Shown here piece by piece: positions 26,937 through 57,597 of a stretch of 64,000 nt of DNA. A program made the position numbers and the translations under genes. This stretch comes from Prevotella melaninogenica (GTDB lineage Bacteria > Bacteroidota > Bacteroidia > Bacteroidales > Bacteroidaceae): NCBI RefSeq assembly GCF_018127925.1, contig NZ_CP072347.1:622501-686500 (forward strand), read 5' to 3'. Within the stretch, counting starts at the first letter, position 1. Every line of letters starts with the position of its first letter. The notes beneath the pieces were generated by a model that was not told the DNA's origin, made no database searches, and saw only the letters and a program-made list of their open reading frames with translations.

Positions 26937-27107
26937 ACTCATTTGGCTTCTTAAAGACGCCTAATTGGCTTGCAAAAGGTGCCCTTTTGAGGTCTTACTA
27001 ACGCCCTTTTGGAGTCCAATTAAGCACCTTTTGTTTTCACGTTTTGCAAGTGTTTGATTCTCTGCGGGTTACAAAGGTGTCGAAAAGAGGCGTTTTGGAG
27101 CTTTTTT
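26937..27107 (+). repeat. Dispersed 22-nt-phased repeat, copy A
   Basis: Units start at 26937, 26959, 26981 and 27003, with a final GCACCTTTTG at 27024. Spacings are 22, 22, 22 and 21 nt. The 27042-27107 tail has TTTTGCAA, TTACAAAGG and TTTTGGAGC. It fills much of the 612-nt gap between the fumarase end and the GLPGLI start; the rest of that gap holds the GLPGLI promoter and the fumarase terminator. Confidence 0.88.
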
Positions 27108-27174
27108 AGAGAGTTTTCTAATGATTTTGTGTCAATATTTTTCACAACCAGTGAGGCTTTGTTTTTAGAAAAGA

Positions 27175-27228
27175 AGCAAAAGAAAAAGCGGTATAATGAC
27201 GTCGCAAAAGTTCGTCTTATACCGCTTT
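27175..27228 (-). terminator. Intrinsic terminator of the fumarase gene
   Basis: On the minus strand AAAGCGGTATAA (27228-27217) pairs with TTATACCGCTTT (27196-27185), extended by GACG/CGTC inside, and runs into a T-rich tract (to about 27175). It lies about 105 nt after the fumarase stop. Confidence 0.85.
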
Positions 27229-27333
27229 GTAAGATGAGGCTATACCAATGTCTCGTTAGGAAAAGGGATATCCTTTCCTGCGATTTACGCTTGATAGCAT
27301 CGTTGATATAGCTGATTTATGTGCTGGGAGAGC

Positions 27334-28980
27334 TTACTTCTCGCAGCTGCAGCCAGTCCAAGGCTTTAGCTCTTTGAAGAAGTCATGACCCTTATCGTCA
27401 ACAAGGATGAAGGCAGGGAAGTCCTCAACGGTAATCTTCCAAACGGCTTCCATACCGAGTTCTGGATATTCTACGCACTCAATGCTCTTGATGCTGCTCT
27501 GTGAGAGAACGGCAGCCACACCACCGATAGTACCGAGGTAGAAACCACCATGCTTCTGGCAGGCATCTGTCACAGCCTGTGTACGGTTACCCTTAGCAAT
27601 CATCACGAGTGAACCACCATGCTCTTGGAACTCGTCAACGTATGGGTCCATACGGTTGGCAGTGGTAGGTCCCATTGAACCACATGGGTAGCCCTCTGGA
27701 GTCTTGGCTGGTCCTGCATAGAGGACAGGGTAATTCTTGATGTAATCAGGCAGGTCCTCGCCAGCATCCAAACGTGCCTTGAGCTTAGCGTGAGCAATGT
27801 CACGTGCCACGATGATAGTACCCTTGAGGTTAACACGTGTTGAAACAGGATACTTTGTCAGTTCAGTACGAACAGCATCCATACCCTTATCGAGGTCAAT
27901 CTCGATACCCTTCGCACCTTCTCCTGGCTTGCGGTACTCCTCTGGAATCAACTCGCTTGGGTTAGTGTCCATCTTCTCCAACCAAATACCGTCCTTATTG
28001 ATCTTCGCTTTGATGTTACGGTCAGCAGAACAGCTAACACCCATACCGATAGGGCAGCTTGCACCGTGACGTGGCAGACGGATGATGCGGATGTCGTGAG
28101 CAAGATACTTACCACCAAACTGTGCACCAAGACCAATCTTGTGAGCCTCTTTGAGAATCTTCTTCTCGAGGTCGATGTCGCGGAAAGCACGTCCTGTCTC
28201 GTCGCCAGTAGTAGGAAGATTGTCGTAATACTTGATACTTCCGAGCTTAACGGTGAGGAGGTTCTTCTCTGCAGAAGTACCACCAATCACGAAACAGATG
28301 TGATAAGGAGGACAAGCAGCAGTGCCAAGGCTCTTCATTTTCTCAACGAGGAAAGGAATGAGCGTACCCTCATTCTGTATAGTAGCTTTGGTCATTGGGT
28401 AGAAGTAGGTCTTATTAGCAGAGCCACCACCCTTTGCTACCATTACGAAACGATATTCTGCGCCCTCAACAGCCTCGATGTCAATCTGTGCAGGGAGGTT
28501 ACACTTGGTATTCACCTCATCGTACATATTGAGTGGAGCGTTCTGTGAGTAGCGGAGATTCTCTTGTGTAAAGGTGTTGAACACACCACGAGAGAGTGCC
28601 TCTTCGTCCTCGAAACCTGTCCATACCTGCTGACCCTTTTCACCGTGAATGATAGCAGTACCAGTGTCTTGGCAGAAAGGTAGTACGCCTTTCACAGCTG
28701 TCTCAGCATTGCGGAGGAACTGGAGTGCTACGTACTTGTCGTTCTCTGATGCCTCTGGGTCGGTCAGAATCTTTGCAACTTGCTCGTTGTGTGCGCGACG
28801 GAGCATGAACTCACAATCGTGGAAAGCCTCCTGTGCTAATAAAGTAAGTGCTTCTTTGCTTACCTTCAGAATCTCTTTACCTTCAAACTCACCAACGCTG
28901 ATACCTTCCTTTGATACCAGACGATACTCGGTGTCATCTTTGCCCAATTGGAACATTGGTGCATACTTGAATTCTGCCAT
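27334..28980 (-). CDS. fumB: Fumarate hydratase, class I (4Fe-4S)
   Basis: A 548-residue oxygen-sensitive class I fumarase that interconverts fumarate and malate. The cluster cysteines are predicted as C103 (PFCQDTGTA), C223 ([10 protein letters not shown]) and C317 ([10 protein letters not shown]), close to positions 105, 224 and 318 of E. coli FumA. The C-terminal beta domain ([33 protein letters not shown]) is complete. It fits the malate-fumarate-succinate route of Prevotella. Transcribed after the M16 protease gene with a stem-loop between them; a terminator follows. Confidence 0.95.
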
Positions 28981-28993
28981 AATGTTTTGTTTA

Positions 28994-29025
28994 CCTGTCT
29001 GCCCTTTATTGGTAGGGCAGACAGG
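28994..29025. terminator. 12-bp hairpin between the M16 protease and fumarase genes
   Basis: CCTGTCTGCCCT (28994-29005) pairs perfectly with AGGGCAGACAGG (29014-29025). The T-tract (GCTTTTTCT) follows on the plus strand, opposite to the flanking genes. On the minus strand it would be a structured fumarase leader or a T-poor terminator of the protease gene. Confidence 0.55.
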
Positions 29026-29076
29026 GCTTTTTCTATTTGTTTATAATATGTTTTTGTATTCTTTTCTTACTGTTTA

Positions 29077-32007
29077 TTAATAGCCGAAGATTTCTTCTGT
29101 TGTCAGTCTCTTGATAGGTGCAATCTTTTCTAATGCCTTGAGGTCAAGTTCTTTCTCGTTACCAAGGATGATATACTTGAAGGTCTTGTTAGCAATGTAC
29201 TCCTTCTCGAAGTTAATAACATCCTGCAGTTGCAGACTTGGAAGAGCGTTGTAAATCTTTTCACTCAATGAGGTGTCGAGACCTAAACGCTGTGCTGCAA
29301 GATAAGAGGTGAGGATAGAGTACTTAGTTGTACGAGCGGAAGCAAGGCTCTTCATCAAGCTTTGCTTGGCAAGGTCAAAGCCACTCTGGCGTACAGGTAC
29401 GTTGTTGAGAAGTTTGTTGAACTCTGTTACACAGTCCATCATCTTATCGTTCTGTGTGATGATGTAGGTGTAGAAGCTCTCATTACCTCCTAAACGATAA
29501 GGAGATGCATAGACAGCTGAAGCTGAATAAGCCAAACCACGTGCCTCACGTAACTCTTGGAAGACGATGGCATTCATACCACCTCCGAAGTATTCATTGA
29601 AGAGGGCGATGATAGGGGCACGGTCGGCAGACCACTTCTGGTTCTGATTGTGGAGCTGAACCATGTAGATATTCTTTGCGTCGTAAGGTGCAATGAGAAC
29701 CTCGTTCTTTGGTGTTGTCTCCTCGGTATAACGCTTGATAGCAGGCACTGCAGCGAACTTCTTTGGTGTCTGGATAGTCTTGCTGACAAGCTGGTCAACC
29801 TCTTTCAGGCTTGAAGGACCGTAGTAAAGCACTGTCAACTTATAGTTCTTCAAGTTCTTCAAAAGGTTAAGCAGTACCTGTGGGTTGATTGACTTCAACT
29901 CCTGTTCACTTGGAACGTTGCGAGTAGGGTTGTACTCTCCGTAGGTAGCATAGTCTCTGAGGGCAGCGAAGTTAGCGTTCTGGTTAGCCTTGTTGTCGCT
30001 GCGTGACTTTAGAATCTGCTCTACATAGAGGTCGTAAGCCTCCTTGTCAACCTTTGCATTACTGAGTAAATTGTTCAACAGAGCAAGTGCCTGAGGCAGG
30101 TTAGAGTTGAGACCACTTAACGTAATGTACGAAACCTCGTTTCTTTCAGAGAGGTTATAGTCGCAAGCTAACTTATAGAACTGCTGCTTAATCTGCTCGT
30201 TGGTGAGCTTATTGGTACCTAAGTAATCAAGATAACCAGCTGCATAGCTGAGCATTGGGTTATGTTCGTCACCGTAAGGTACTACGAAGCAAAGTGTAAA
30301 GAGGTCGTTTGTCTTGTCCTGCTTATAGAGAACAGGAAGACCCTTCTGTGTTGTTGCCTTGGTAAGGTCGCGCTTGTAGTTAACAAACTGTGGCTGGATA
30401 GGAGTTGTCTTGGTGTTTACAATCTCCTTAAGGAAGTCACTCTGCTTGTCGTTGTTGGTTGGGATTGGAGTGATTGTAGGTTTCTCTACCTTCTTAATAG
30501 TAGTATCGTTGCCCTGCTCCTTGTAGACACAAGCGAAGTCGTTGTGGAAGAATTCATTAGCAAATCTAACAACTTCAGCCTTTGTTAACTTTGAAATGCG
30601 ATTGAGTTTATCCACTTCCTGCTTCCAGTCTTTATGGTTGATGAAGGCATCCACATACTGCTTTGCACGGAACTGGTTATCATCTAACTGCGTATAATAG
30701 TAACGCTTGTAGTTGTTAACGATAGATGGCAAGAGATCATCAGAGAAGTTACCCTTCTTGAGTTTCTCTATTTCAGACAAAGCAAGGCTGCGAACCTCCT
30801 GCAAAGTCTGTCCACTCTTTGGCTGTCCATAGACATAGAATACCGAATATTCGTCCATATCGGTCACTCCAGCCTCTATCTCTTGTACTTTTAGCTTCTG
30901 ACTGAGGTCGAGATCGAAGAGTCCTGCTTGTCCGTTAGACAAGAGTTGTGCTACAATCTCTAATGTATCTATCTGTAAAGACTTACTTGCATCAGCGCGC
31001 CAGCCCATGAAGAGCATAGGAGCTTCCTTACCAACAACAGTCGTATCGACAGGTGCTGTGAGTGTTGGTTGAGCTGGGAACTGTGGTATGTCGATGTGTG
31101 CACTTGGCTTCCAATCGCCAAAATACTTCTCAATCGAAGCTACCGTCTTGTCTGGGTCGAGGTCGCCTGAAAGACAGATAGCGATGTTGTTTGGTACGTA
31201 GTATTTGTTAAAATAGTTCTTGATATTGGTGATTGAAGGATTCTTCAGGTGCTCACCAAGTCCGATAGTGGTCTGTGTTCCGTATGGGTGAGTAGGGAAA
31301 AGCTTTGCAAAGAGTGCTGCATAAACCTTACGCCAGTCACTTGAAAGACCGATGTTATACTCCTCATACACCGCTTCTAACTCTGTATGGAAGCCACGGA
31401 TAACCATATTCTGGAAACGATCGCCCTGAACTCTTGCCCAAGTGTCAATCTCATTGGATGGAATATTCTCTACATAGCAAGTTACGTCATTAGAAGTATA
31501 AGCGTTTGTACCCTCACTACCGATGGCAGTCATCATCTTATCGTACTCGTTTGGAATGTTATAACGAGCTGCAAGTTGTGAGATAGAGTCAATCTGGTGG
31601 TACCATTGCTTGCGTGCAGCTGGGTCAGTGATACGACGATACTGCTCGAAGCGAGCCTCAATTGAGTCGAGATAAGGGTGTTCAGCCTCCACATTAGACG
31701 AACCAAAGTGGGTAGTACCCTTAAACATAAGGTGCTCTAAGTAGTGTGCAAGACCTGTTGTCTCCTTTGGGTCATTGCGAGAACCTGTGCGCACAGCGAT
31801 ATATGTCTGTACACGTGGCTTCTCTTTGTTGACAGAAAGATAGATTTTCAGACCGTTTTTCAGTGTGTAGATACGTGTCTGCATCGGGTCATTCGGTATG
31901 CTTTCATAGCTGTAACGCTGCGCATAAGCTGCCACAGATGCAAATAGGAACAATAGTCCTAAGCTTAGCCCCTGTATGAGGGTACTGTTAAGGAAATGTT
32001 TTTTCAT
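29077..32007 (-). CDS. M16 family metallopeptidase (insulinase-like)
   Basis: A 976-residue exported zinc peptidase. A signal peptide or anchor occupies residues 1-30. The inverted zinc motif HYLEH is at 88-92, with VYEEYN downstream supplying the second glutamate ligand. Four repeated M16 domains are expected; the third and fourth lack HxxEH, as is normal. It probably degrades peptides in the periplasm or at the cell surface. It lies upstream of the fumarase gene and 47 nt downstream of the DUF4954 gene. Confidence 0.93.
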   Translation of the reverse strand: MKKHFLNSTLIQGLSLGLLFLFASVAAYAQRYSYESIPNDPMQTRIYTLKNGLKIYLSVNKEKPRVQTYIAVRTGSRNDPKETTGLAHYLEHLMFKGTTHFGSSNVEAEHPYLDSIEARFEQYRRITDPAARKQWYHQIDSISQLAARYNIPNEYDKMMTAIGSEGTNAYTSNDVTCYVENIPSNEIDTWARVQGDRFQNMVIRGFHTELEAVYEEYNIGLSSDWRKVYAALFAKLFPTHPYGTQTTIGLGEHLKNPSITNIKNYFNKYYVPNNIAICLSGDLDPDKTVASIEKYFGDWKPSAHIDIPQFPAQPTLTAPVDTTVVGKEAPMLFMGWRADASKSLQIDTLEIVAQLLSNGQAGLFDLDLSQKLKVQEIEAGVTDMDEYSVFYVYGQPKSGQTLQEVRSLALSEIEKLKKGNFSDDLLPSIVNNYKRYYYTQLDDNQFRAKQYVDAFINHKDWKQEVDKLNRISKLTKAEVVRFANEFFHNDFACVYKEQGNDTTIKKVEKPTITPIPTNNDKQSDFLKEIVNTKTTPIQPQFVNYKRDLTKATTQKGLPVLYKQDKTNDLFTLCFVVPYGDEHNPMLSYAAGYLDYLGTNKLTNEQIKQQFYKLACDYNLSERNEVSYITLSGLNSNLPQALALLNNLLSNAKVDKEAYDLYVEQILKSRSDNKANQNANFAALRDYATYGEYNPTRNVPSEQELKSINPQVLLNLLKNLKNYKLTVLYYGPSSLKEVDQLVSKTIQTPKKFAAVPAIKRYTEETTPKNEVLIAPYDAKNIYMVQLHNQNQKWSADRAPIIALFNEYFGGGMNAIVFQELREARGLAYSASAVYASPYRLGGNESFYTYIITQNDKMMDCVTEFNKLLNNVPVRQSGFDLAKQSLMKSLASARTTKYSILTSYLAAQRLGLDTSLSEKIYNALPSLQLQDVINFEKEYIANKTFKYIILGNEKELDLKALEKIAPIKRLTTEEIFGY

Positions 32008-32054
32008 ACAATCAGTATTTGTTTATTGTTATAATTGGGTAGAGAATGTAATGA

Positions 32055-33908
32055 TTAATTCTCAAAATCAACTTCATGATCAAGGCTATTAACGAACGAT
32101 TCAAAGACCTCTCTGTCTACATCGCCCATCTCAAACTCCTTCTCGGCATCCTTTTTTATCTCTGCAATCCATGCACGGCGTGCCTCGATATAATCTCGTT
32201 TGATGCGTGCATCGTCCTCGGGAGAAATCTCATTAATGCCGTAGTATTCTAAAATCATGCGATAGGTCCATGCCCATTGATAGATACGATAGTTCTCGTT
32301 AATCTCTCGGAAGCGGTTAACCACCTCTTCTATCGTTTCAAGACTACCGCTCTTGATATCCTCAATGAGGCGTCGCTCTTCTGATACTGGGAGCAGAAGA
32401 CCAGAAAGGTCGTCCCATCGTCCGAGTCCTACTTCGGTCTGTGGCTTACCAAAGAAGCCCCATTTGTGGGCACGTTTCAGTACTGCTCCCATGTAGATAC
32501 GCAGTGCGATGTCATAATATTTGATACCTTTTCTTAGACTGGTAGCATTGATAACGTATTCATGATAGTTATAAGATGAAACATTGTCACCACTTGCCTG
32601 GCGCAGATTCTCAAGTATCTTCTTTCCCTGCAGAATCTCTCCAACAGAGTAAGGTGATAGCCAATCGAAGTTGACAATACTCTTCTGCGTCTGCTGTGGA
32701 CGCATATCACGCTTTGGCCACTTGCGTATATCACGATAAAGACCAACTGTTGTGATGTTGCGACCGGGCACGAGATACATCTTGTCAGCCTCAGCAATGA
32801 GGTAAGAGAAGGGTAGGGCAGTCGTGTTAGGGTGGTGCATCAGCTTACCGAAACATACGGAGAACGTACCGATTGTTGCTGGCATGAGTAGATAACTACC
32901 GCTTGCCGTCTTTGTTCCACGCTCCAAGATGCCCCAGTGCATTGGTCCCATCTTATAGGCATGGTTAGAGAAGTTGGTCCCAGAACCTGCATTATAGAAA
33001 GAGAACATACCACCAATGAGCAGTGAACTCTTATGATGTGAGGCACAGAACGGACCGCAGAAAGCAGCGCACGCCTCACCGTTTGACATAAAGGAATTGG
33101 CGAAGAAGACACTCTGTGAGGCTGTAAAGCCATTGCTTATCTGACAGGCTTCACCCACGAAGCAGTCTTGCATCTTCACACTGTTCACGATACTTGACCC
33201 ATCTGATATGATAGAGTTCTCGCAGATGACCCCTGTACCGATGTAAACACTGGCATATTCAGAGCTGAGAATGGTACAATCGCTCAAACGACTTGCACCA
33301 GATATCTCGCAATCGTCCTGAATGACGGTGTTGGTAATCTCCTTTGTATTGACAATCTTCACTTTATTGCCAATCGTTCCACGTTCAGGATTGGTGCGAG
33401 CAATCTCCTCTTTCACTAATCTTCGGATAGCATTCTTGAGGTCTTTGTCGTTGAAATGCTTCACCATAAAGGCTGCAAACTGGCTATTGAGGTCGTGGAA
33501 GAAGATTACATTGCCGTCGCCCACCTCATTCAATACCGAGATAAGGTTACCTTCTCCATAGGTAGCTCCTTCCGTAGTCTCCATGACAGAGATGTTAGAG
33601 ATGAGGCAGTCGTCACCGATTGTATAGTTATTAATATAATTCCCCACCTTCTCAATAAGGCAGTCGTTACCAACGGTAACATTGCGTAGGGTAGCATCAT
33701 TGATACCAGAATGCTTGACGAAGCCCTTTGTTATCTCGACTTCTTTCTGGACACTTCCCAACTGTACGTCACCATAGAACATGACACGGTGGAAGAATTT
33801 CGCTTGAAATCCGTCCTCCGCAACCTCTACTCGACTCCAATCTTCTGCCCAGCAGCTATTGCTCTCGAGTATCTCAATCTCTTCAAAGGTAAGGGAACGA
33901 TATTGCAT
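32055..33908 (-). CDS. DUF4954 family protein
   Basis: A 617-residue cytoplasmic protein matching DUF4954, a Bacteroidetes-centred family. Residues of about 70-330 show repeated hexapeptide-like turns (IGDDCLISNISV, IQDDCEISGASRLSD, MQDCFVGEACQISNG), suggesting a left-handed beta helix related to sugar-nucleotide or acyl transferases. The C-terminal 200 residues are helical (KIRP-like RYDIALRIYMGAVLKRAHKWG pattern, shown here in part). No catalytic function is established. A 111-nt gap with AT-rich inverted repeats separates it from hflX upstream. Confidence 0.85.
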   Translation of the reverse strand: MQYRSLTFEEIEILESNSCWAEDWSRVEVAEDGFQAKFFHRVMFYGDVQLGSVQKEVEITKGFVKHSGINDATLRNVTVGNDCLIEKVGNYINNYTIGDDCLISNISVMETTEGATYGEGNLISVLNEVGDGNVIFFHDLNSQFAAFMVKHFNDKDLKNAIRRLVKEEIARTNPERGTIGNKVKIVNTKEITNTVIQDDCEISGASRLSDCTILSSEYASVYIGTGVICENSIISDGSSIVNSVKMQDCFVGEACQISNGFTASQSVFFANSFMSNGEACAAFCGPFCASHHKSSLLIGGMFSFYNAGSGTNFSNHAYKMGPMHWGILERGTKTASGSYLLMPATIGTFSVCFGKLMHHPNTTALPFSYLIAEADKMYLVPGRNITTVGLYRDIRKWPKRDMRPQQTQKSIVNFDWLSPYSVGEILQGKKILENLRQASGDNVSSYNYHEYVINATSLRKGIKYYDIALRIYMGAVLKRAHKWGFFGKPQTEVGLGRWDDLSGLLLPVSEERRLIEDIKSGSLETIEEVVNRFREINENYRIYQWAWTYRMILEYYGINEISPEDDARIKRDYIEARRAWIAEIKKDAEKEFEMGDVDREVFESFVNSLDHEVDFEN

Positions 33909-33930
33909 AAACTTTTCTTTTAGTTGTTTT

Positions 33931-34015
33931 TATTAGCCTTATTAGCCTTATTGGGCATATTAGCCCTATTAGCCTAATTGGGCAAATAAGCCCAATAAGG
34001 CAAATATGCCCAATA
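33931..34015. repeat. Overlapping AT-rich inverted repeats between hflX and the DUF4954 gene
   Basis: GCCTTATTGGGC (33945-33956) is the exact reverse complement of 33990-34001, and ATTGGGCATATT (33950-33961) of 34003-34014. TATTAGCC is repeated several times in between. The two pairings share bases, so they are mutually exclusive. Confidence 0.9.
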
Positions 34016-35359: not shown

Positions 35360-35642
35360 CTCATAAAATCTGAAAAATACTAATGAAAAACTCTGTTTTT
35401 ATGTCCTTTAACCCAAATCTCATGCCCCCACAATATGTATAATTCTGCTTCTTCTGAAATATGGAGTGATAAAAAGCTATTATAATAAGGCACACAGTGC
35501 AACTCTAAGTTTGCAGCAAGAAACATAGATTTGCTCTGTGAGATATTTCTAATGTCCTAAACACAAAAGACAGAGCTTGTCAATCCAAACTTCTGAAGAA
35601 TACTTTTTGTCTGAATTTTTCACATATCGATTTTTTAAAGAC

Positions 35643-35792
35643 TACCAAATTGCTTGCAATTAACGCCCTTTTAGCTTGCAAAAGATGCCCTTTTGAGGTC
35701 TAACTAACGCCCTTTTGAACCCTTATTAAGCACCTTTTGGATTTCCTTTCTGCAACTATTTGAAAACGAGTAACTTACATAGGTGTTAAAAT
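35643..35792 (+). repeat. Dispersed 22-nt-phased repeat, copy B
   Basis: Units start at 35643, 35665, 35687 and 35709, with a final GCACCTTTTGG at 35730; spacings 22, 22, 22 and 21. The tail has CTGCAACTATTTGA and ACTTACATAGG. It lies in the 803-nt gap between the MBL hydrolase end and the hflX start. The 35360-35640 part of that gap is AT-rich with no gene seen. Confidence 0.88.
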
Positions 35793-35937
35793 ATCTCATG
35801 TTTACCCCATTTTTCTACCTCTTCTTCGAATATTTTGTCAATAAATTTCTTTGCCTTTGAGTATATCTTACTCAGGGGCACACTAATTACTGATTTGGGT
35901 TTTGGCTGAGGGGAGAGAAAAAGATATTAAAGTTTAC

Positions 35938-37051: not shown

Positions 37052-37143
37052 TTTGTTTAGCACTCCCCTCCCTTCGGAGGGGCTGGGGGGAGGCTTCGTT
37101 TGTTTAGCACTCCCCTCCCTTCGGAGGGGTTGGGGGAGGCTTC
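37052..37143 (+). repeat. Two tandem copies of the GC-rich repeat
   Basis: Two 47-nt direct copies (GTTTAG at 37055 and 37102), each with CACTCCCCTCCCTTCGGAGG and GGGGGAGGCTTC. CCCCTCC-CTTC-GGAGGGG forms a 7-bp hairpin in each. They lie right after the murB stop (minus strand) and could act as its terminator. Bacteroidetes genomes commonly carry such repeats. Confidence 0.9.
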
Positions 37144-41092: not shown

Positions 41093-41433
41093 CTCGTTTC
41101 TATATCTTCTGCTTAACGAGTAGTTTCAGATATTGTATAAACTCTAATTAGGGGTTCTTGCGTTAAAAGTGTGAACACTTTTTCGTATAGCTTTAACGGA
41201 AGAAACGAGCTTATGTATTAAACAAAACACAGTTAAGACAGACTTAGCAGTCTGTTTTATTCATCCTTTGACAGAGATAATCTTTTCATACTAACGCTTC
41301 GAAAATTGGCAGACAATACGTTGAAAAATCATGACATAAATTCGTGTAAAACATCTACAAATAAGGACAAGAATGTGTCTAAAAAGGCAGGCTTGCAATC
41401 ATCAGGAAATCAATTGGTTATGGGTTCGTTCAT

Positions 41434-41530
41434 AAAAAGGTGCTTAATTGGACTTCAAAAGGGCGTTAATAAGACCTCAAAAGGGCATCTTTTGCAAGCT
41501 AATTGAGCGTCTTTTCAAAGTCTAAAGAGC
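41434..41530 (-). repeat. Dispersed 22-nt-phased repeat, copy C
   Basis: Reverse orientation to copies A and B. CAAAAAGGTGC lies at the left; unit boundaries are at 41444, 41465, 41487 and 41509, with spacings of 21, 22, 22 and 22 from the left. The tail conserved in A, D, E and F is poorly preserved. The 885-nt gap between pheS and the exonuclease gene holds this copy, two low-complexity stretches and a hairpin; no gene was seen. Confidence 0.88.
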
Positions 41531-41689
41531 ATGTGTTGGTTTTGAGTAGCATAAAAATATTTTACGAACATGGATGAGTATGGGAATCTGTTGTTTGTAG
41601 GAAAAGGAAAGACATGGTAATGGGTTGACCTTGCATTTAATGCTGACTAACCTTTGTGAACCCTACTATCATGGTCACCACCAGTATTT

Positions 41690-41775
41690 CTCACGTAACA
41701 TATCATCATCACCCAATATCTATCATTCATCACCTATCACATCATCACCACCTAACATCCATCACTTATCACCCA
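41690..41775. repeat. CATCACCC/ATCACCTAACATCC low-complexity repeat
   Basis: Repeated CATCATCACCC, TCATCACCTATCAC and ACATCCATCACTTATCACCC units run up to the end of the exonuclease gene. It is the same family as the stretches at 40897 and 54600, in opposite orientation to the first. Confidence 0.7.
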
Positions 41776-41780
41776 ACATC

Positions 41781-42272
41781 CTACAATATCTCACGTGCTA
41801 TCCACGCACAAGCTTCCGCATCAGCGAGGGCGTGATGGTGGTCGGTTAGCTCATAGCCACAGGCAGAAGAAACCGTATGTAACTGATGGTTGGGAAGGTG
41901 AGGGAGCAGCTGACGTGCAGCCTTCAGCGTATCAAAGAATTCATAATCAGGATAATCCATTTGGTAGGTATAGAAAGAAGCCTTCAAACAACCTTTGTCA
42001 AATGGTGTATTATGGGCTACAAGTGGTAGACCTTCTATCATGGGTTCTATCTGCTTCCACACCTCACAGAATACGGGTGCACCGTCAGTATCTGCACATG
42101 TCAACCCATGCACCTGCGTACACCGCCAATGATAATAATTCGGTTCGGGCTGTATAAGGGAATAGAAGTTATCGACTATCTCTCCTCCCCTTACTACTAT
42201 CACGCCCACCGAGCATACACTACACCGCTCAAAATTCGCTGTTTCAAAGTCAATCGCTGCAAAGTCCTGCAT
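41781..42272 (-). CDS. DnaQ-like 3'-5' exonuclease domain protein
   Basis: A 163-residue stand-alone DEDDh exonuclease. Exo I is AIDFETANF (Asp8, Glu10), Exo II is VAHNTPFDKGCL, and Exo III is HHALADAEACA. Such proteins remove 3' nucleotides from DNA or RNA; the substrate is not clear. The upstream reading GVIVVRGGEIVDNFYSLIQP is typical of the DnaQ/PolC-epsilon fold. It is convergent with pheS and has no operon partner. Confidence 0.9.
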   Translation of the reverse strand: MQDFAAIDFETANFERCSVCSVGVIVVRGGEIVDNFYSLIQPEPNYYHWRCTQVHGLTCADTDGAPVFCEVWKQIEPMIEGLPLVAHNTPFDKGCLKASFYTYQMDYPDYEFFDTLKAARQLLPHLPNHQLHTVSSACGYELTDHHHALADAEACAWIAREIL

Positions 42273-48654: not shown

Positions 48655-48858
48655 ACCTCACGAATTTACCAATATCAACAATCACGAATAAGTGCATATG
48701 TCCTAAAAGGCTGACCAAAACAGAATTTTAGTCTATACCCCTTTTATGTAATAAACGCCATTACCACCATAAAATTGCTTAGTAGAATGTTTTTTTTTGA
48801 TGATTACAAAAGTCGTAAAATACTCCTTTGATGTTTGAATTTTATTTACAAACCACAC

Positions 48859-49235
48859 GTGCTTTCGGACTTTAAAAGACGAAAAAACGATCTAAAAGAC
48901 TACCTTTGTAAGTTGCATAGAATCAGATAGTTGCAAAGTTACGTTTTAAAAGGTGCTTAGTAAGCCTTCAAAAGGGCGTTACTTAGAGCTCAAAAAGGCA
49001 TCTTTTGCAAGCCAAAAGGGCGTTAATTGGAAGCCAATTTACGCCCCTTTCGTTTGCTGTCTTAGAATTTTATTTATAAAACCCCTCGTTCTTACAAAAG
49101 CTATAGAGAATTTAAAAGGCAGAAGTATGCGAAAATCAATCGTTCTTCTGTTACTCTGTCTTTCTTTTCTCCAGCTTACAAGCAACTCGTTAACTTGTCT
49201 ACCAAGTAATCGTTCTTCTGCTTTGCACTCATGCA
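48859..49235 (-). repeat. Dispersed 22-nt-phased repeat, copy D, within a direct duplication
   Basis: Reverse orientation. Unit starts from the left at 48957 (21 nt), 48978 (22), 49000 (22) and 49022. The left tail 48859-48947 carries TACCTTTGTAAGTTGC, a -7-like box reading rightward into the array. The part to about 49235 is duplicated at 49372-49725. A signal-peptide-like frame near 49127 exists here, but the second copy has a stop at its second codon, so it is taken as chance. The 48655-49890 gap (1236 nt) has no credible gene. Confidence 0.9.
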
Positions 49236-49371: not shown

Positions 49372-49725
49372 CGTGTTTTCGGACTTTAAAAGGCGAAAAA
49401 ACGAGCTAAAAGACCGCCTTTGTAAGTTGCATAGAGTCAGATAGTTGCAAAGTTGTGTTTTAAAAGGTGCTTAGTAAGCCTTCAAAAGGGCATCTCTAGC
49501 AAGCCAGAAGGGCGTTAATTGGAAGCCAATCTACGCCATTTTCGTTTGCAGTCTTAGAATTTTATTTACACCCCCCCACGTTCTTACAAAAGCTATAGAG
49601 AATTTAAAAGGCAGAAGTATGTGAAAATCAATCGTTCTCCTGTTACCCTGTCGATAAGTAACTCGTCAACTTGTCATCTCGTTACCTTGTCTACCAAATA
49701 ATCGTTCTTCTACTTTGTCTTTATG
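49372..49725 (-). repeat. Dispersed 22-nt-phased repeat, copy E, second member of the duplication
   Basis: It matches copy D from CGTG(C/T)TTTCGGACTTTAAAAG onwards, but lacks exactly one 22-nt unit (the two copies are offset by 513 nt before the missing unit and 491 nt after it). Units start at 49471, 49492 and 49514. Confidence 0.9.
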
Positions 49726-51002: not shown

Positions 51003-51233
51003 ATGGAACTACAGAATAGTACGGCACGTCGTCCAGAACGTCGTCGTCATAAACGTGAGACAGAAGATAGGTTTCTTCCTATCCGCCAATGGCTTAACAT
51101 TATCTTTATGTTAGGTGCGCTTGTTGGTGTGATTGTCTATTTCTTAACCGATAACACTACGACTGGTACAATTATTATTCTTGTTTCGATGGTCTTTAAG
51201 ATGGTCGAAAGTGTACTCCGTTTTATTCGTTAA
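51003..51233 (+). CDS. Small two-helix membrane protein
   Basis: A 76-residue protein with a strongly basic N-terminus (ARRPERRRHKRE) and two membrane helices (about 33-50 and 54-72). Its TAA is followed directly by the porin ATG (no gap), so the two are probably translationally coupled. No family recognised. Confidence 0.75.
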   Translation: MELQNSTARRPERRRHKRETEDRFLPIRQWLNIIFMLGALVGVIVYFLTDNTTTGTIIILVSMVFKMVESVLRFIR

Positions 51234-53630
51234 ATGAAGAAACTTACTATCTTATTTTCCCTTTTTGTGTTAGTGGCTAATGCTGCTATGGCACAGACAG
51301 ACGGCACCACTCCGTATGATGATGGTACGTTCACGGCTGATGGTTATAGAAACAATCGTAACATGGGACGTTCGGATTCTATACAAAGTGAGCACAAGGA
51401 GATACCACGTGGCTTGAAGGTGTGGACGATTGATGAGCGTTTCGGTGACCGCAAAGCTGCTGTTCCCGATACGTTGTCGTATATGTATATGAATTCTAAC
51501 CTCACTTATGGAAAGCGAGGGGAGTATAACACCTTGGGAAACTTGGGTTCTCCACGTCAGAATCGTATCTTTATTGATCGTCCTGCTACGTCAGAATTCT
51601 TCTTCCTCGACCCGTATGATATGTTTATCGTACAGCCAAACAATTTCCAGTTTACCTCAACCCTTTCGCCGATCACGGTTCTCTCTTATAATACCGCTGG
51701 TAACAGAAACAACGGAGAAGACCGATTTAAGGCAATCTTTGCGGTGAATGCGGGTAAGGAGTGGGGCTTTGGCTTTAAGTTTGATTACCTATACGGACGT
51801 GGATATTATAGCAATCAGAGTACTTCTCATTTCAACTATTCAATGTGGGGAAGCTATTTAGGTGAACGCTATCAGGCACATTTGCTTCTTTCTCTTAATC
51901 ATCAGAAGGTCGCTGAGAATGGTGGTATTGCCAATGATGCCTATATCACGCATCCAGAGTCGTTCCGTGATAGCTATAGCGAAGAAGAGATTCCAACCAT
52001 ATTGAAGCAGAATTGGAATAGAAATGACAATCAACATGTGTTCTTCAATCACCGTTATAGTCTCGGCTTCTTTCGTAAGGTGCCGATGACGGAAGAGGAG
52101 ATTAAGGCAAAGCAGTTTGCTCTTAAATCTCAGAAAGCACAAGAAGCACAGCAGGATAAAGACAAGGCTCGTCGCCGTGCAAAGGCAAAAGGCGAGAAGT
52201 TTGATGAGGAAGCTTACGATAAAGAGAAGCGTTCTGCAGGTCGACCTGACGATGCTGTCATTGCTGGAGATGCGTCACAAGTGAAGACAACAGCGGACAA
52301 TGCTAATGCCAATGAGCGTTTGACGGTCAATTTGGAGGACTCTATTCAGATGGCAAACCTCAAGAAACAGGATGCTTTGGCTAAGGACTCTACTCAGAAG
52401 TGGATGAAGGAAGAGTATGTTCCAGTGACGAGTTTCATTCATACAGTACGTTTCGATAATTACCGTCGTATCTATCAAGCATACGATACTCCGACTGATT
52501 TCTATGCACAGAACTACTTTAACTATGGTACTGCAGCCAATGATTCGATTTATGATACGACAAAGCACTGGTCCTTGAAGAATACCTTTGCTGTCGCTTT
52601 GCTTGAGGGATTCAACAAATGGGCGAAGGCTGGACTGAAAGCTTTCCTTTCCTATGAGTTGCGCCATTATGCTCTTCCTTCAATGATAACGCCAAGTGCG
52701 AGTACTGTTGCCTTCTATAATGGTGACAAGACATGGAACCAACATGACATTTCTGTCGGTGGTCAGCTGTTGAAGACACAGGGTAAGACGTTCCATTATG
52801 ATGTTAGTGCGGAGGCTTGGTTGGCTGGAAGTAGGGCAGGGCAGGTTCATGTTGATGGTCATGCTGACCTCGGTTTCCCTCTTTTGGGTGACACAGTTCA
52901 ACTCGCTGCAACAGCTTTCTTCCACCGTTCTGCTCCATCCTTCTATATGGGTCAGTACTATGGTAAGCATTATATGTGGGACAATAACCTCAATCAAGAG
53001 ATACATTCTCGCATCTTGGGTGAGTTCTCTTTGAAGAAGACACGCACTAAGTTGCGTGTTGGCTATGATGTTTTTAAGAACTATACCTACTTTGGTATAC
53101 AAAACGACCGCATCCAAAGCGGTGATAACTACCTCGTACAGCATAACAACTTGAATGTCCGTCAGTCCAGCAGTCCTATCAACTTGCTGACTTTACAGCT
53201 ACAACAAGACTTCCGTTTGGGCATCTTCAACTGGCAAAATGTGCTGACTTTCCAGAAATCAAGTAAGGCAGAAATACTCCCAGTACCGACATTCAACGCT
53301 TATAGTAACCTGTTTATACGATTCAAGATAGCACGTGTGTTGGATGTTGACCTTGGTGTTGACGGTCGTTACTTCACAAGTTATTATGCGCCAGAGTATA
53401 TACCTGGAATCGGTGCTTTTGGTATACAGGAGACCGATGCGAGCCGTACAAAGATTGGTAACTATCCACATTTGAATGCTTATGCTAACTTCCAGTTACA
53501 GCATACTCGCTTCTATGTAATGTTCACGCATGTAAACAGTGCTGATGGGGGTAAATATTTCTATACGCCTCACTACCCATTGAACCAGCGTGTATTGCAG
53601 TTTGGTATCAGCTGGAACTTCTTTAACTAA
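51234..53630 (+). CDS. Putative outer membrane porin (Porin_10-like)
   Basis: A 798-residue exported protein. Signal peptide MKKLTILFSLFVLVANAAMAQ; residues of about 75-130 (MYMNSNLTYGKRGEYNTLGN) and the barrel portion (GFGFKFDYLYGRGYY) match the putative porin family of Bacteroidetes. A charged insert rich in Lys/Ala/Glu/Asp (about 290-360) lies within the barrel. The protein ends with an aromatic residue-rich strand (QFGISWNFFN), as beta barrels do. Substrate unknown. It precedes menA by 20 nt. Confidence 0.85.
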   Translation: MKKLTILFSLFVLVANAAMAQTDGTTPYDDGTFTADGYRNNRNMGRSDSIQSEHKEIPRGLKVWTIDERFGDRKAAVPDTLSYMYMNSNLTYGKRGEYNTLGNLGSPRQNRIFIDRPATSEFFFLDPYDMFIVQPNNFQFTSTLSPITVLSYNTAGNRNNGEDRFKAIFAVNAGKEWGFGFKFDYLYGRGYYSNQSTSHFNYSMWGSYLGERYQAHLLLSLNHQKVAENGGIANDAYITHPESFRDSYSEEEIPTILKQNWNRNDNQHVFFNHRYSLGFFRKVPMTEEEIKAKQFALKSQKAQEAQQDKDKARRRAKAKGEKFDEEAYDKEKRSAGRPDDAVIAGDASQVKTTADNANANERLTVNLEDSIQMANLKKQDALAKDSTQKWMKEEYVPVTSFIHTVRFDNYRRIYQAYDTPTDFYAQNYFNYGTAANDSIYDTTKHWSLKNTFAVALLEGFNKWAKAGLKAFLSYELRHYALPSMITPSASTVAFYNGDKTWNQHDISVGGQLLKTQGKTFHYDVSAEAWLAGSRAGQVHVDGHADLGFPLLGDTVQLAATAFFHRSAPSFYMGQYYGKHYMWDNNLNQEIHSRILGEFSLKKTRTKLRVGYDVFKNYTYFGIQNDRIQSGDNYLVQHNNLNVRQSSSPINLLTLQLQQDFRLGIFNWQNVLTFQKSSKAEILPVPTFNAYSNLFIRFKIARVLDVDLGVDGRYFTSYYAPEYIPGIGAFGIQETDASRTKIGNYPHLNAYANFQLQHTRFYVMFTHVNSADGGKYFYTPHYPLNQRVLQFGISWNFFN

Positions 53631-53650
53631 TCGTTTAGACATACGAATAC

Positions 53651-54592
53651 GTGATTTCAGAGAATGATAAGATAAAGACCAACAGTCTTTCAGCATGGGT
53701 ACTTGCTGCGCGTCCGAAGACGCTCACAGGTGCAATGGTCCCCGTAATGATAGGAACTGCTTGGGCTTGGAAGCTAAGTGGCGGGGAGAACTTTCGGGTT
53801 GTGCCTGCCATTCTTTGTTTTCTCTTTGCCTTTCTGATGCAGATAGACTCGAACTTCATCAATGACTACTTCGATTGTTTGAAAGGTAATGATGATCGTG
53901 CCACTCGTTTAGGTCCGAAGCGGGCTTGTTCTGAAGGCTGGATAACCCTCCCTGTCATGCGCATAGGACTTGTTGTCAATTCTTTATTAGCCTCTCTTGT
54001 TGGTATTCCCCTCATCTTCTTCGGTGGTTGGGAAATGATACTCGTTGGTGTAGCCTGTGTTCTCTTTGCCTTTCTCTACACCACTTACTTCTCTTATCTT
54101 GGCTTAGGTGATGTCTTGGTGTTAGTATTCTTTGGTATTGTTCCCGTCGTTTTCACCACCTATGTCATCCTTCCTGACCATTCTCAAGCCCTGTGTTTTG
54201 AGGTAATTATGTCGGGCATTATCTGCGGTTTGGTGATAGACACCCTCCTTGTAGTCAATAACTATCGTGATAGAGAGAATGATAAACGTGACGGAAAGAT
54301 AACCCTCATTGTGAGAATAGGTGAGAAAAAGGCAGAAAGGCTGTACTTAGCATTAGGTCTTATGACCTATCTTCAGTTGCTTCTTCTTCTCTTTTCAGGT
54401 GAGAGAGACAGTCTCCTTTCCTTTATCTTCTTGTTTGTTATCTTCATCCCTTATGGTATCTTGCATTACAAAACAGCCATGCAAATGAAGCAAATAAAGA
54501 AAGGTAAGGAGCTAAATATCATCTTGGCGCAAACCGCTCGGAACATGCTAATCTATGGTATAGCAACTACGATTGCATTAGTTGGTTTATAA
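53651..54592 (+). CDS. menA: 1,4-dihydroxy-2-naphthoate polyprenyltransferase
   Basis: A 313-residue UbiA-family membrane enzyme that attaches the polyprenyl tail in menaquinone synthesis. Prenyl-diphosphate motifs are NDYFDCLKG (first Asp-rich site) and NNYRDRENDKRDGK (second). RPKTLTGAMVPVMIGTAWA is the typical opening. The start is GTG at 53651; no in-frame ATG lies nearby. It supplies the quinone used by Na+-NQR and fumarate reductase. Confidence 0.93.
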   Translation: MISENDKIKTNSLSAWVLAARPKTLTGAMVPVMIGTAWAWKLSGGENFRVVPAILCFLFAFLMQIDSNFINDYFDCLKGNDDRATRLGPKRACSEGWITLPVMRIGLVVNSLLASLVGIPLIFFGGWEMILVGVACVLFAFLYTTYFSYLGLGDVLVLVFFGIVPVVFTTYVILPDHSQALCFEVIMSGIICGLVIDTLLVVNNYRDRENDKRDGKITLIVRIGEKKAERLYLALGLMTYLQLLLLLFSGERDSLLSFIFLFVIFIPYGILHYKTAMQMKQIKKGKELNIILAQTARNMLIYGIATTIALVGL

Positions 54593-54599
54593 ACCCGCT

Positions 54600-54668
54600 T
54601 TTAATTCCCCTTCACCTAATCCCTCATTTCATCATCACCCAACATTTAACACCCATCACCCAACCCCT
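54600..54668 (+). repeat. CATCACCC-type low-complexity repeat before the HD gene
   Basis: CTTCACCTAATCCCTC, CATCATCACCC and ACACCCATCACCC units fill the gap between menA and the ATG at 54669. A longer open frame starts at a TTG in menA (54582) and would code through this repeat, which is why the later ATG is preferred. Confidence 0.75.
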
Positions 54669-55313
54669 ATGTCCCAGCCCAATCTCGAACTAATGAACTT
54701 TGTGGAGCGACAGATACTCCCACGTTATAATGACTTTGGAAAGAGCCATGGACTCGGACACGTGCAGCGTGTCATTAAGAGTTCACTTGCTTTGGCAGCC
54801 GTAACGGGTGCCGATGTGAATATGGTATATGTCATTGCCGCCTATCATGACCTTGGTATGGCGGGTCCACGAGCCATTCATCATATCACCAGTGGTAAGA
54901 TTCTCATTGCTGATGTACGACTCCGAAAATGGTTCTCTGCCGAACAGTTGAAGATTATGAAGGAGGCAGTCGAAGACCATCGGGCCAGTAGTTCACGTGT
55001 ACCACGCAGCATCTATGGTAAAATTGTTGCTGAGGCTGACCGTGACCTTGAGCCAGAAGTAGTCTTCTCACGTGCCATTCTCTATGGTATTGAGAACTAT
55101 CCAGAGAAGAATGATGAACAGATGTGGCAACGTTTCCGCGACCATATGAAAGAGAAATATGGGCGTTCTGGTTATCTGAAACTATGGATTCCAGGCTCAC
55201 CGAATGCAAAGAATCTTGAAATAATCCGCAAGACGATTGACAGTGAGGCGGAGTTGCGAAAGGTATTTGACCGCATCTATCAGCAGATACGTGAACAAGA
55301 CGAAAAGAACTAA
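54669..55313 (+). CDS. HD-domain metal-dependent phosphohydrolase
   Basis: A 214-residue HD-domain protein. Metal-binding motifs: SHGLGHVQRV (first His), AAYHDLGM (HD) and VAEADRDLEPE (last Asp, about residue 120). It belongs to the group of small HD hydrolases with uncertain nucleotide or phosphate-ester substrates. The start ATG at 54669 gives MSQPNLELMNFVERQILPRY. It starts 76 nt after menA and 15 nt before the guanine deaminase gene, so the three may be co-transcribed. Confidence 0.85.
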   Translation: MSQPNLELMNFVERQILPRYNDFGKSHGLGHVQRVIKSSLALAAVTGADVNMVYVIAAYHDLGMAGPRAIHHITSGKILIADVRLRKWFSAEQLKIMKEAVEDHRASSSRVPRSIYGKIVAEADRDLEPEVVFSRAILYGIENYPEKNDEQMWQRFRDHMKEKYGRSGYLKLWIPGSPNAKNLEIIRKTIDSEAELRKVFDRIYQQIREQDEKN

Positions 55314-55328
55314 CAAAATACAACTGAA

Positions 55329-55796
55329 ATGACGAAAGAAGAATTGATGCGAAGAGCTATTAAACTCTCTGCCGACAGTGTACGTAATGGGGGCGGTCCA
55401 TTTGGTGCTGTTATTGCCCGTAATGGCGAAATCATTGCCGAAGGAAGCAATGGTGTGACCATTTACAACGACCCTACAGCCCATGCGGAAGTCTCTACAA
55501 TCCGCAAAGCGTGTCAGAAATTGAATACCTTTGACCTCAGTGGTTGCGAAATCTATACCTCTTGCGAACCTTGTCCGATGTGCTTTGGCGCAATCTATTG
55601 GGCACATCTCGATAAGATCTACTATGCCAACGACCGCAAAGATGCTGCCGACATTGGTTTTGATGACGATTTCATCTACCAGGAGATAGCCGTACAACCG
55701 CAATATCGCAAGAAGCCTTCAGAAATCCTTTTGCACAATGAAGCGTTAGAAGTCTTTAAGCAGTGGACAGCAAAGACGGATAAAACAGAATATTGA
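55329..55796 (+). CDS. guaD: Guanine deaminase
   Basis: A 155-residue CDA-fold deaminase that converts guanine to xanthine. Zinc ligands and the catalytic Glu are in TAHAEVSTI and CEPCPMCFGA. NGGGPFGAVIARNGEIIAEG and the C-terminal segment (about 125-155) fit the domain-swapped GuaD of Bacillus. A tRNA- or cytidine-deaminase role is less likely. It is the last gene of a short run after menA. Confidence 0.88.
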   Translation: MTKEELMRRAIKLSADSVRNGGGPFGAVIARNGEIIAEGSNGVTIYNDPTAHAEVSTIRKACQKLNTFDLSGCEIYTSCEPCPMCFGAIYWAHLDKIYYANDRKDAADIGFDDDFIYQEIAVQPQYRKKPSEILLHNEALEVFKQWTAKTDKTEY

Positions 55797-55887
55797 TATC
55801 CTCTAACGATAAGTCAATGTAAGCACACTACTGTTTACATTGACTCTTTTGTTTATAAGATTCTTACTACGAACAAAGCTTTTGATT

Positions 55888-56358
55888 ATGAAGAAAGGAG
55901 TATGGAAAACGAGGAATAAAACACTTTTAATCACAGTATTCCTCTCAACGTTGGTGATAGAATTCATCTTAGTATTCCTAAATGGCTGTTCTGATGGCGA
56001 AGGTCTTGCTTTCGACATAGATAAACAAGCCTTCGTTGTGAAGCAAGGTTGTGTCTGCGGTGGTAGCTTATACATTAGCGGTGAAGATGCATCAGATGAG
56101 TTCGCTGTCATTTATAATAAGAATGTACACGCCTTTTGGTATAATAGTTACAATCCATCTGTCCTTGAAATCAACAACCTTCCTACTTGTTGTAGTATCG
56201 TTTCACATGGCGACACCTTGTCTCTTCGTCGCCTTCCCTTACGACCCAATATCTTCTATTCCGTTTACCGCATGTCAGGTTGCTGCAGAACTTCTCCCCT
56301 TACTATCAAGACCGACAAGCAGGGTAGGGTAGTCAGTGCAGGAAGAGGGCTACAATAA
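55888..56358 (+). CDS. Hypothetical lipoprotein or membrane-anchored protein
   Basis: A 156-residue protein whose N-terminal helix runs from about residue 12 to 32 (LLITVFLSTLVIEFILVFLNGC). A possible lipobox is FLNGC. The mature part has six cysteines in pairs (QGCVCGG, TCCSI, GCCRTS), which suggests disulfides in the periplasm. Family not recognised. The longer frame to 55840 begins with TTG and is not used. Confidence 0.7.
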   Translation: MKKGVWKTRNKTLLITVFLSTLVIEFILVFLNGCSDGEGLAFDIDKQAFVVKQGCVCGGSLYISGEDASDEFAVIYNKNVHAFWYNSYNPSVLEINNLPTCCSIVSHGDTLSLRRLPLRPNIFYSVYRMSGCCRTSPLTIKTDKQGRVVSAGRGLQ

Positions 56359-56770
56359 AATGATATTGATCGGTCAATAACTCCCACAAACCCCTGCCAT
56401 TCGTATCTAATAATGTCTGATTAAGTCCCGCTCTTAGTCTTTTTCCACGCTCATTTTTAGACGAGTAAAAGACTATGAGGAGTTGGGCAGCTGAGGGACG
56501 ATAACAAAAGAGGGATGCACAAGTTGATGTGTATCCCTCTTAAATTTCCTCTGTTTTGTAAATGAATCTAAAATACTGAAAAAGTCTATTACAATATATA
56601 TCTTTGTAAAATGATAATATAACAATATTTTGCTTTCATTATAAGCCCCACGGATATTTACCTTATTTAAACGAGACTATATTATTATAAATAGGGGGCT
56701 ACGTTATAAAAAAAAGAATTGGCTTACTCCCAATATGAAATGCTTCTAAATATTTATCTCCAATACATTC
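56359..56770 (+). other. Intergenic region with a terminator-like hairpin
   Basis: No gene is seen. It holds one stem-loop at 56508-56541; the remaining sequence is AT-rich without repeats of the dispersed families. Confidence 0.6.
56508..56541. terminator. 14-bp hairpin between convergent genes
   Basis: AAGAGGGATGCACA (56508-56521) pairs with TGTGTATCCCTCTT (56528-56541), with one G-T pair. A and T residues flank both ends, so it may end transcription from both sides. Confidence 0.6.
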
Positions 56771-57034
56771 TCAAAAGTTAGGATTTTCACGATGTTTAAC
56801 AATTTTAGTGAATTCTTGCTTATATATGTAAGTAAATTGATGCAACAAGTCTTCTAAAGTAGTTGCACGTGTTGTTGCCCCTGTATGAAAATCAAGTTGG
56901 CCAGCATTAAGAAGTTGTGGATTAGTTTCGTAAGAGTAGTAAGGTGTAGTACCCTCTTCTTCATTCTTGTATATTCTAAAATCTACAAGTTTGTCTGCTA
57001 ATGTAACTTTGCCTTCGAAAAGAATTTTTTTCAT
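56771..57034 (-). CDS. Hypothetical small protein
   Basis: An 87-residue acidic, soluble protein. It has no signal peptide or membrane helix. The pattern MKKILFEGKVTLADKLVDFR suggests a small beta-then-helix domain. It has no partner genes. Flanks are AT-rich and contain a 22-nt-phased repeat on one side. Family not recognised. Confidence 0.55.
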   Translation of the reverse strand: MKKILFEGKVTLADKLVDFRIYKNEEEGTTPYYSYETNPQLLNAGQLDFHTGATTRATTLEDLLHQFTYIYKQEFTKIVKHRENPNF

Positions 57035-57405
57035 AGTTCTAATTTAATATTAAAAGTTAAGGGCAATATTACCCATAAAACTAAGTATGCAAAAATTGTT
57101 CCAAAAATCAAAAATGGAGGATGAATGATAAATGATGATATGAGAGTTCGTATTAAATGACATTTTGTCACATTTGCCTAAAATGTGGTGAAAATGGTAG
57201 AGAGATATATGAGAATCAGCATTTACATTTAATCAAATCAGTTTATTAGGGATGTTTTTTCAGTGATTTATGATGTTTTTGAATAATAACCATTCTTAAA
57301 CATCATTCTCTTATAGCCAGCTATTAGAAATTATTTTAGAATTACAACTTTAATAGCCTATGTATGACTAATTTGAGTAAATTACTTTCTTTTGTAAAGA
57401 AACCT

Positions 57406-57597
57406 CAAAGGCTGAAAATCAAAAGACGCTCTTTTGGCTTTCAATTAACGCCTAATTGGCTTCTAAAAGATGCCCTTTTGCAATGCTACTAACGCCCTTT
57501 TGAAGTCTTACTAAGCATCTTTTAAAATGCTGTTTTGCAACTCCTTGATAGCAAACGACTTACAAAGGCGATTTTAGAGCTTGTTTTTTACCCTTTT
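57406..57597 (+). repeat. Dispersed 22-nt-phased repeat, copy F
   Basis: The longest array: units start at 57406, 57428, 57450, 57472 and 57494, with a final GCATCTTTT at 57515; spacings 22, 22, 22, 22 and 21. The tail has GTTTTGCAACTCCTTGAT, GACTTACAAAGGCG and TTTTAGAGCTTG. The rest of the 669-nt gap (57035-57400) has no gene. A hairpin (GCAGC-TAATAA with TTATTA-GCTGC, 57644-57673) near the efflux operon end is a possible weak terminator. Confidence 0.9.

Follow-up and report, generated by a model that had tools for sequence, protein, structure and literature searches.

The genome of Prevotella melaninogenica analysed here (designated G000) contains a dispersed intergenic element of about 250 bp, which is homologous and alike in architecture to a PINSR-like repeat of a second Prevotella genome, G287, and which is sufficiently old for different species to have copies of it at shared sites. 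It consists of a TGTAAA-type motif at either end, five units of 22 nt and a dyad tail. A miniature inverted-repeat transposable element (MITE) of the ISL3 type carries the element, but does not account for most copies. The array of units is read here as a phased row of sites for a predicted dimeric DNA-binding protein, with a probability of about 0.42. The analysis concerned a stretch of 64,000 nucleotides from this genome (the window) and its relatives; G, g and L numbers designate the genomes, other genera and loci compared. G178 is taken to be P. jejuni, since it gives places identical to those of G202, the genome of locus L040.

Six intergenic arrays had been predicted in the window, and all of them were recovered at their places. 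With an ungapped 54-nt core query, five scored 47-49 of 54 and the sixth scored 43, compared to a best score of 31 on either strand when the window was randomised 20 times by a Markov-2 model. The arrays lie as predicted, but the full elements, the ends of which were set with a full-length profile, are longer, at about 250 bp. The copies, together with the sequences directly associated with them, are the following:

26900..27147, plus strand: copy c1, whole element by the full-length profile, with unit starts at 26935, 26957, 26979, 27001 and 27023.
35438..35600, plus strand (ends approximate): hairpin-rich module directly 5' of c2, common to other class A copies.
35605..35852, plus strand: copy c2 (class A), with unit starts at 35641, 35663, 35685, 35707 and 35729.
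41153..41660, minus strand: MITE carrying c3, with its right terminal inverted repeat (TIR) GGTTCTTGCGTTAAA at 41153-41167 and an approximate left edge.
41321..41569, minus strand: core of copy c3 (class B), with unit starts at 41532, 41510, 41488, 41466 and 41444.
48834..49082, minus strand: copy c4, with unit starts at 49045, 49023, 49001, 48979 and 48957.
49377..49570, minus strand: copy c5, with four units (one lost), resembling c4 and its flank.
57390..57637, plus strand: copy c6, with unit starts at 57426, 57448, 57470, 57492 and 57514.

Copy c5 is perhaps a local duplicate of c4.

Twenty spaced 20-kb stretches of G000 (400 kb in total) contained 29 copies, which corresponds to 244 copies per genome (95% interval 163-350). 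When copy 6 was used as the query, 40 of 193 candidates were scored in G000. The set of 67 G000 copies used below comprises 38 loci picked by similarity to c6, the samples and the window. A family model of 159 columns was built from 42 copies; 150 of its 1889 first-look candidates were scored, and among the matches listed all had E<=1.8e-22. The consensus begins with TTTTGTAAAnnATTTTCA, followed by about 20 nt and by the five 22-nt units, which end in CTAACGCCCTTTTGAAGTCCAATTAAGCACCTTTT, the best conserved stretch. The 3' part consists of the tail TTTGTAACTAnnTGATA...TTACAAAGG, an AT-rich stretch and then TTTTGTAAATATATTTC. Beyond the two end motifs the shared sequence drops off.

Each of the 42 copies is 159 nt long and fills the 159 columns of the alignment without a gap, as expected for common descent. 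The original prediction had derived common descent from a final spacer of 21 nt, an argument that fails, since this spacer is 22 nt long: in 39 of 43 copies the last spacing reaches 9 or more identities out of 14 at 22, and in none of the 43 does it do so at 21. The apparent 21-nt spacer arose because the units were anchored on 'GC' (CGCCC versus GCACC). The general spacing of 22 nt was borne out both in the window and in the family copies. A palindrome had been expected at each junction; in this species, each copy has one junction with a clear CAAAAG-ATGCC-CTTTTG, but the palindrome is not clear at each.

Slippage might have produced every such array as a minisatellite, with 22 nt as a mutational preference, and some arrays of other types are indeed near-perfect (L086:15678, 66/66 identities at lag 22), while c5 has lost exactly one unit. 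However, each unit position has its own sequence across the 42 copies of the model, which implies that the units were not made anew. Slippage is not known to prefer 22 nt, which also counts against this origin, and we consider it very unlikely.

Relatives of the element were sought in a sample of 201 genomes of the bacterial family, with 14 candidates scored per genome and strict filters. Twenty genomes match at E<=0.01, and values below 1e-25 were obtained only for G000, G056 and G178. In the named genome collection, the exact pattern matched 21 stretches in six species (P. histicola, P. jejuni, P. multiformis, P. corporis, P. veroralis and Hoylesella timonensis), and the matches examined in P. 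jejuni are mostly of the MITE form. G056 has the same unit sequence as G000, whereas P. jejuni, P. histicola and P. veroralis have the same architecture with other units. Such dialects, identified by weaker profile matches together with a lag scan, are AAAAGRYGCYCTTTTGCATNGT in P. histicola, GAGAACAYGCCCTTCT... in P. jejuni, AAGAAACGCCCTCTT... in P. veroralis and AAAAGCAATGCTTTTACATTGT in G122. The proposed register of two helical turns thus extends to related elements, as spacing by 22 nt is also present in those of P. jejuni, P. histicola, P. veroralis, G122 and G287.

At L072:10049-10294, an element occupies the same place in the same orientation in G000, G056 and P. jejuni, with units AAAAGGTGCCCTTTTG in G000 and G056 and with its own dialect AGAAGACGCCCTTC in P. 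jejuni. At the site of c1, the G056 copy is 90% identical, and P. jejuni and P. histicola have elements in their own dialects, the site in P. jejuni being split by a rearrangement. The G056 ortholog of c4 is 88% identical and the G056 copy of c6 94%, with an alignment that begins at the 5' end of the element; these three identities come from best-match pairing, in which two pairs of G000 copies had a common G056 partner. For c2, c3 and c5, no family match was found in G056. An element of another subfamily is present near the place of c5, and at the sites of c2 and c3 short arrays of CACnnnnnGTG units were seen by eye, with 29/44 identities at lag 22, but 34 at another lag. Directly 3' of the c1 ortholog in G056, a sequence of about 350 bp (L088:8233-8582) with the inverted ends CTTCCGAAATCTGGAGTG and CACTCCAAAATCCTGAAG was observed, which is absent from G000 and resembles the module beside class A copies.

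Dispersed copies may also serve as substrates for rearrangement: a segment of 2.5 kb between two direct copies in G000 (L072:12558-15316) is absent from G056, which has one copy there. The segment includes a stretch 95% identical to P. jejuni.

According to passages of its description, PINSR is an intergenic repeat of 188 bp with 177-184 copies per P. intermedia genome and no TIRs, which is also present downstream of tnaA; about three quarters of the sites are common to two strains, some inversions or translocations occurred between copies, and PCR confined it to the intermedia/nigrescens group, other clades being negative (PMC4755523). G287, a two-chromosome genome with tnaA, carries downstream of this gene an element that contains TGTAAATATTTTTCACA and units of 22 nt and has a TGAT tail. 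The tnaA assignments are nearly full-length matches to TIGR02617 below threshold (none above the cut-off and 21 below it in 120 genomes of the genus). A profile of the G287 element identified 20 further copies in 140 kb, of which two are incomplete. When it was run over 464 kb of G000, comprising the samples and the window, its nine best matches all fell into the family, which covers 1.9% of the bases (best E 5e-4, shuffled best 1.3), and in the reverse search the 21 best matches all fall into G287 copies (best E 2e-4). Some of these cross-matches are on the opposite strand, as dyad units permit.

The G000 family and the G287 repeat are therefore taken to be one family, with a link to PINSR by place and architecture. 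Like PINSR in the part of its description cited above, the G000 family is intergenic, has more than 100 copies per genome and is for the most part without TIRs, and both belong to two-chromosome Prevotella, with a place downstream of tnaA in G287. Homology follows from the reciprocal profile matches, which are weak per copy, and presupposes that the repeat downstream of tnaA in G287 is PINSR. The confinement to the intermedia/nigrescens group, a statement on distribution and not on structure, does not hold for the architecture, which was found in G000 and G056 as well as in P. jejuni, P. histicola and P. veroralis. The 22-nt register, dialects and a MITE form are not mentioned in the passages of PMC4755523 used here.

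The original prediction had named the BrickBuilt MITE of Porphyromonas gingivalis as a possible parallel. According to its description, a genome has 19 elements, each with 1 to 22.8 units of 23 nt and with an IS5-like TIR such as GAGACCTTTGCA (PMC4596501). The parallel is one of form alone, namely intergenic tandem units near two helical turns with a leader and a tail. In contrast to the variable number of 23-nt units, the G000 family has 22-nt units, five in 42 of the 43 aligned copies, and the BrickBuilt TIR is absent: GAGACCTTTGCA had one match at <=1 mismatch in the 67 G000 copies with 500-nt flanks, and the reversed control had none. On the grounds of the place at tnaA and the reciprocal profile matches, the family is regarded as a wider, previously unrecognised extension of PINSR, and not as BrickBuilt. 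In the literature on repeats of Prevotella and Bacteroidetes, consulted mostly at the level of titles and abstracts, no account of a 22-nt register was found; the fixed spacing, the species-specific unit dialects and the same spacing in unrelated arrays look new.

A transposable form of the element was identified in class B. The ISL3-type MITE of the subclass that includes c3 has the TIR GGTTCTTCCGTTAAA and target-site duplications (TSDs) of 8 bp. Class B copies of P. jejuni measure about 590-630 bp, with terminal repeats GGTTCTTCCGTTAAATG... and the TIR GGTTCTTCCGTTAAATGTGTAGA. Fourteen loci were compared for P. jejuni, and the junctions of 12 loci were inspected, 11 of these with both ends; the TSDs are exact by eye in 9 of the 11 copies, three of the 9 having a changed terminal TIR base. 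A filled and an empty site were also found: a copy of 652 bp in G000 (L074) is flanked by GGGATTTTT and GGATTTTTTTC, and only one GGGATTTTTG stands at this place in P. jejuni, the duplicated sequence being GGATTTTT. G000 contains the 16-nt end of the TIR 74 times at <=1 mismatch (reversed control 0), and among the matches listed at least seven TIR pairs are about 1306 bp apart. One of these pairs (L013) encloses a DDE_Tnp_ISL3 transposase, the frame of which is broken by stops. Class B thus shares with ISL3 insertion sequences (ISs) and their derived MITEs a matching TIR, the 8-bp TSD, an empty site and a transposase-bearing parent in the same genome; the difference is that the 22-nt array element lies in the interior of the MITE and that most core copies are without TIRs.

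If all copies were decayed ISL3-type MITEs, spread as selfish non-autonomous transposons, the 22-nt array would be passive cargo. The features of class B favour this origin. However, TIR-like sequence (<=3 mismatches) on both sides was found for only 4 of the 67 G000 copies, one of them with a different inner sequence, and not for the other 63, a count that would miss copies with ends beyond 500 nt. In addition, the shared sequence drops off beyond the 250-bp core, and the array is better conserved than the tail and the 3' end. This origin for all copies is accordingly judged unlikely. The left TIR of c3 was looked for and not found. TSDs, which had been proposed as a check, are present in class B MITE copies, but no empty site was found for core-only copies, and L074:5229 compared with P. 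jejuni gave no clean junction. The earlier statement that no transposase is nearby holds for ten ORFs (open reading frames) beside or near the copies, which have no Pfam transposase, but c3 derives from an ISL3-family IS elsewhere in the genome.

Two insertions into or beside family elements were also observed. At L013:688-1993, an ISL3-family IS is inserted beside a family element, with the 8-bp duplication CAATTTAT. At L048:4684-6524 of H. timonensis, about 1.6 kb, starting with GGGTCTGCTA and ending with AGTAGACCC, with TAATTA on both sides, interrupts a family element and looks like an IS insertion.

Repetitive extragenic palindromes (REPs), which are spread by a REP-associated tyrosine transposase (RAYT), resemble the family in being extragenic, in having dyad units in hundreds of copies and in tandem order, and in the presence of several types per genome; REPs and their mosaic arrangements (BIMEs) likewise form several families per genome. 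The family units are different in that they stand head to tail at a fixed 22 nt within a body of 250 bp, and no RAYT was found. This origin was rejected, since Y1_Tnp (PF01797) had no match in G000, compared to 5 positive genomes among 14 controls; this negative rests on the Y1_Tnp search of G000, and the tags GTAG or CGTC, given for such systems in a passage of PMC3733652, were not searched for. An origin from REPs is considered extremely unlikely.

The conservation of the parts of the element was compared in ten G000-G056 pairs defined by synteny. The array is 94.3% identical (783/830), the 5' end 91.7%, the tail 84.2% and the 3' end 84.7%, so that the array differs from tail plus 3' end with p=3e-12 and from the 5' end with p=0.06. 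In a rival reading, the arrays would be transcribed hairpins that act in 3' untranslated regions as bidirectional terminators or mRNA stabilisers. The 43 copies lie between convergent (19), codirectional (19) or divergent genes (5), which would suit such a role. On the minus strand, default RNAalifold gave 11 pairs (E -9.1 versus -0.3, sd 0.6, in 20 column shuffles), and RIBOSUM scoring gave 31 pairs on the plus strand and 36 on the minus strand, both better than 20 column shuffles. The 36-pair structure has standard pairs in 89.2% of cells, a share of only 39-55% being reached if the partners are offset by 1-3 columns. For one full copy, the fold of either strand is better than that of shuffled sequence (z -2.3 and -2.7). 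However, the covariation of the minus-strand pairing is not above that of shuffles (0.150 versus 0.149, 197/500 as high), and this pairing may only mirror the conserved dyads, since column shuffles also destroy any dyad. No pair was obtained for the plus strand with default RNAalifold, and Rfam gave no match at gathering score over 26000-58500. At the boundary of units 1 and 2, plus-strand pairs switch from AU to UA in 17-18 of 42 copies, and the plus-strand structure has 53 two-sided cells compared to 39.8 in shuffles (3/500 as high); its score exceeds 500/500 shuffles, which related sequences can do without structure. A function as hairpins is considered a serious rival, less probable than the preferred reading but more so than the other alternatives.

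The period itself was also followed independently of the family by a model-free lag scan (windows of 66 nt with 42 or more identities, at lags of 12-40 and outside ORFs), in samples that were small and in part picked by synteny. G000 (400 kb) has 22 places at lag 22, followed by 3 at lag 23, and G056 (174 kb) has 10 at lag 22, followed by 4 at lag 14. P. jejuni (109 kb) has 6 at lag 22 and one each at four other lags, P. histicola 7 at 22 and 1 at 21, and P. veroralis 2 at 21, 2 at 22 and 3 at 23. Further places at lag 22 were found in G005 (2), G136 (1), G122 (4), G287 (14) and G214 with G220 (1), and in the other genera g8 (2) and g22 (1), with g15 having one each at 21 and 22. From P. histicola and P. 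veroralis to these other genera, none of the samples has a place at lags 12-20 or 24-40. No array place was detected in P. multiformis, G092, G192, G150, G264, the genera g9, g13, g14 and g10, or 200 kb of E. coli K-12. Altogether, lag 22 leads in 9 of the 15 Prevotella groups sampled and was seen in 3 of 7 other genera. Outside the range or the mask, lag 11 occurred once in G005, lags 44-47 in G000, and lags 31 and 42 in P. veroralis without the ORF mask.

The G000 sample including the window (464 kb) has 15 intergenic places at lag 22 outside the family, 10 inside it and 2 in ORFs. The non-family arrays consist of unrelated units, for example CACnnnnnGTG, TTTTCATGAAAATAAATATTT, TTACAAACGGCTTGTA and GTTCGCGAAC. 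One such array lies in the window:

6492..6558, no strand assigned: array with period 22 and units of another sequence type (TTACAAACGGCTTGTACAGATA), which is not related to that of the family.

P. histicola also has a similar unit (L104, L039). At L086:15678, L078:335, L087:3588 and L124:4609, arrays with period 22 combine TTTTCATGAAAA with TAAATATTT, several of this type starting with AATTATTT and ending with AAATAATT; a variant in G287 has TTTACACGTAAA (L187:13798). In 19 non-family arrays, the units are palindromic more often than shuffled ones (combined p 6.5e-7), a value to be read with the arrays not being independent and several single values lying near 1. Prevotella and some neighbouring genera may possess one class of intergenic arrays set by spacing and not by sequence, in which a few units, most of them with dyad symmetry, follow one another at 22 (21-23) bp, with many unrelated types per genome, at least some of them with species-specific dialect drift, and with a common machinery that reads or makes the 22-bp register. 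This generalisation is put forward tentatively.

For the family, the preferred reading is that of phased protein sites. The dyad unit would offer arms of 5 nt (AAAAG-N5-CTTTT and dialect variants) with centres 10 bp apart, one helical turn, and the units follow at 22 bp, two turns, because of which dimers of a predicted protein could occupy neighbouring units along the same helix face. The specificity of the protein would drift in each lineage and the units of the genome would drift along, so that dialects result while register and architecture stay. The role would likely be structural, as a gene-boundary or nucleoid-organising platform. The family size, the register, the 94.3% identity of the array, the dialects at one site, the dyad kept by exchange, the link to PINSR and the rearrangement between direct copies were counted in favour of this reading.

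Several points weigh against it. The binding protein is hypothetical, and the row of phased sites is deduced from the geometry of the units. In the most conserved G000 units (CTAACGCCCTTTTG, TTAAGCACCTTTT), the left arm has ceased to be a mirror image of the right one. The dialects and the higher identity of the array could stem from gene conversion, and the exchange at units 1 and 2 looks like two co-inherited states and not like many independent events. On the minus strand, most copies allow pairing along the whole array, which suits transcribed hairpins equally. The excess of convergent genes is not significant (13/32 versus 27/109 intergenic regions of at least 250 nt, p=0.12). Arrays of any type at lag 22 are not significantly shared at orthologous gaps outside G056 (2/12 versus 4/36); at lag 21 the corresponding counts are 3/12 versus 0/36 (p=0.013).

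Other short repeats were noted in the window: AC x19.5 at 11319-11357, TTATTAGCC 9-mers at 33930-34015, a 47-nt unit present twice at 37052-37143 and CATCACC-type units at 41691-41781.

A repeat reported as specific to one Prevotella group appears to be a wider element, which keeps its geometry from species to species but not its sequence. The ISL3 MITE form is one way in which 22-nt arrays get copied within genomes. At about 240 sites per genome, the family would rank among the main non-coding components in a genus that is abundant in the mouth, and it raises the question of what reads two helical turns in Prevotella genomes.

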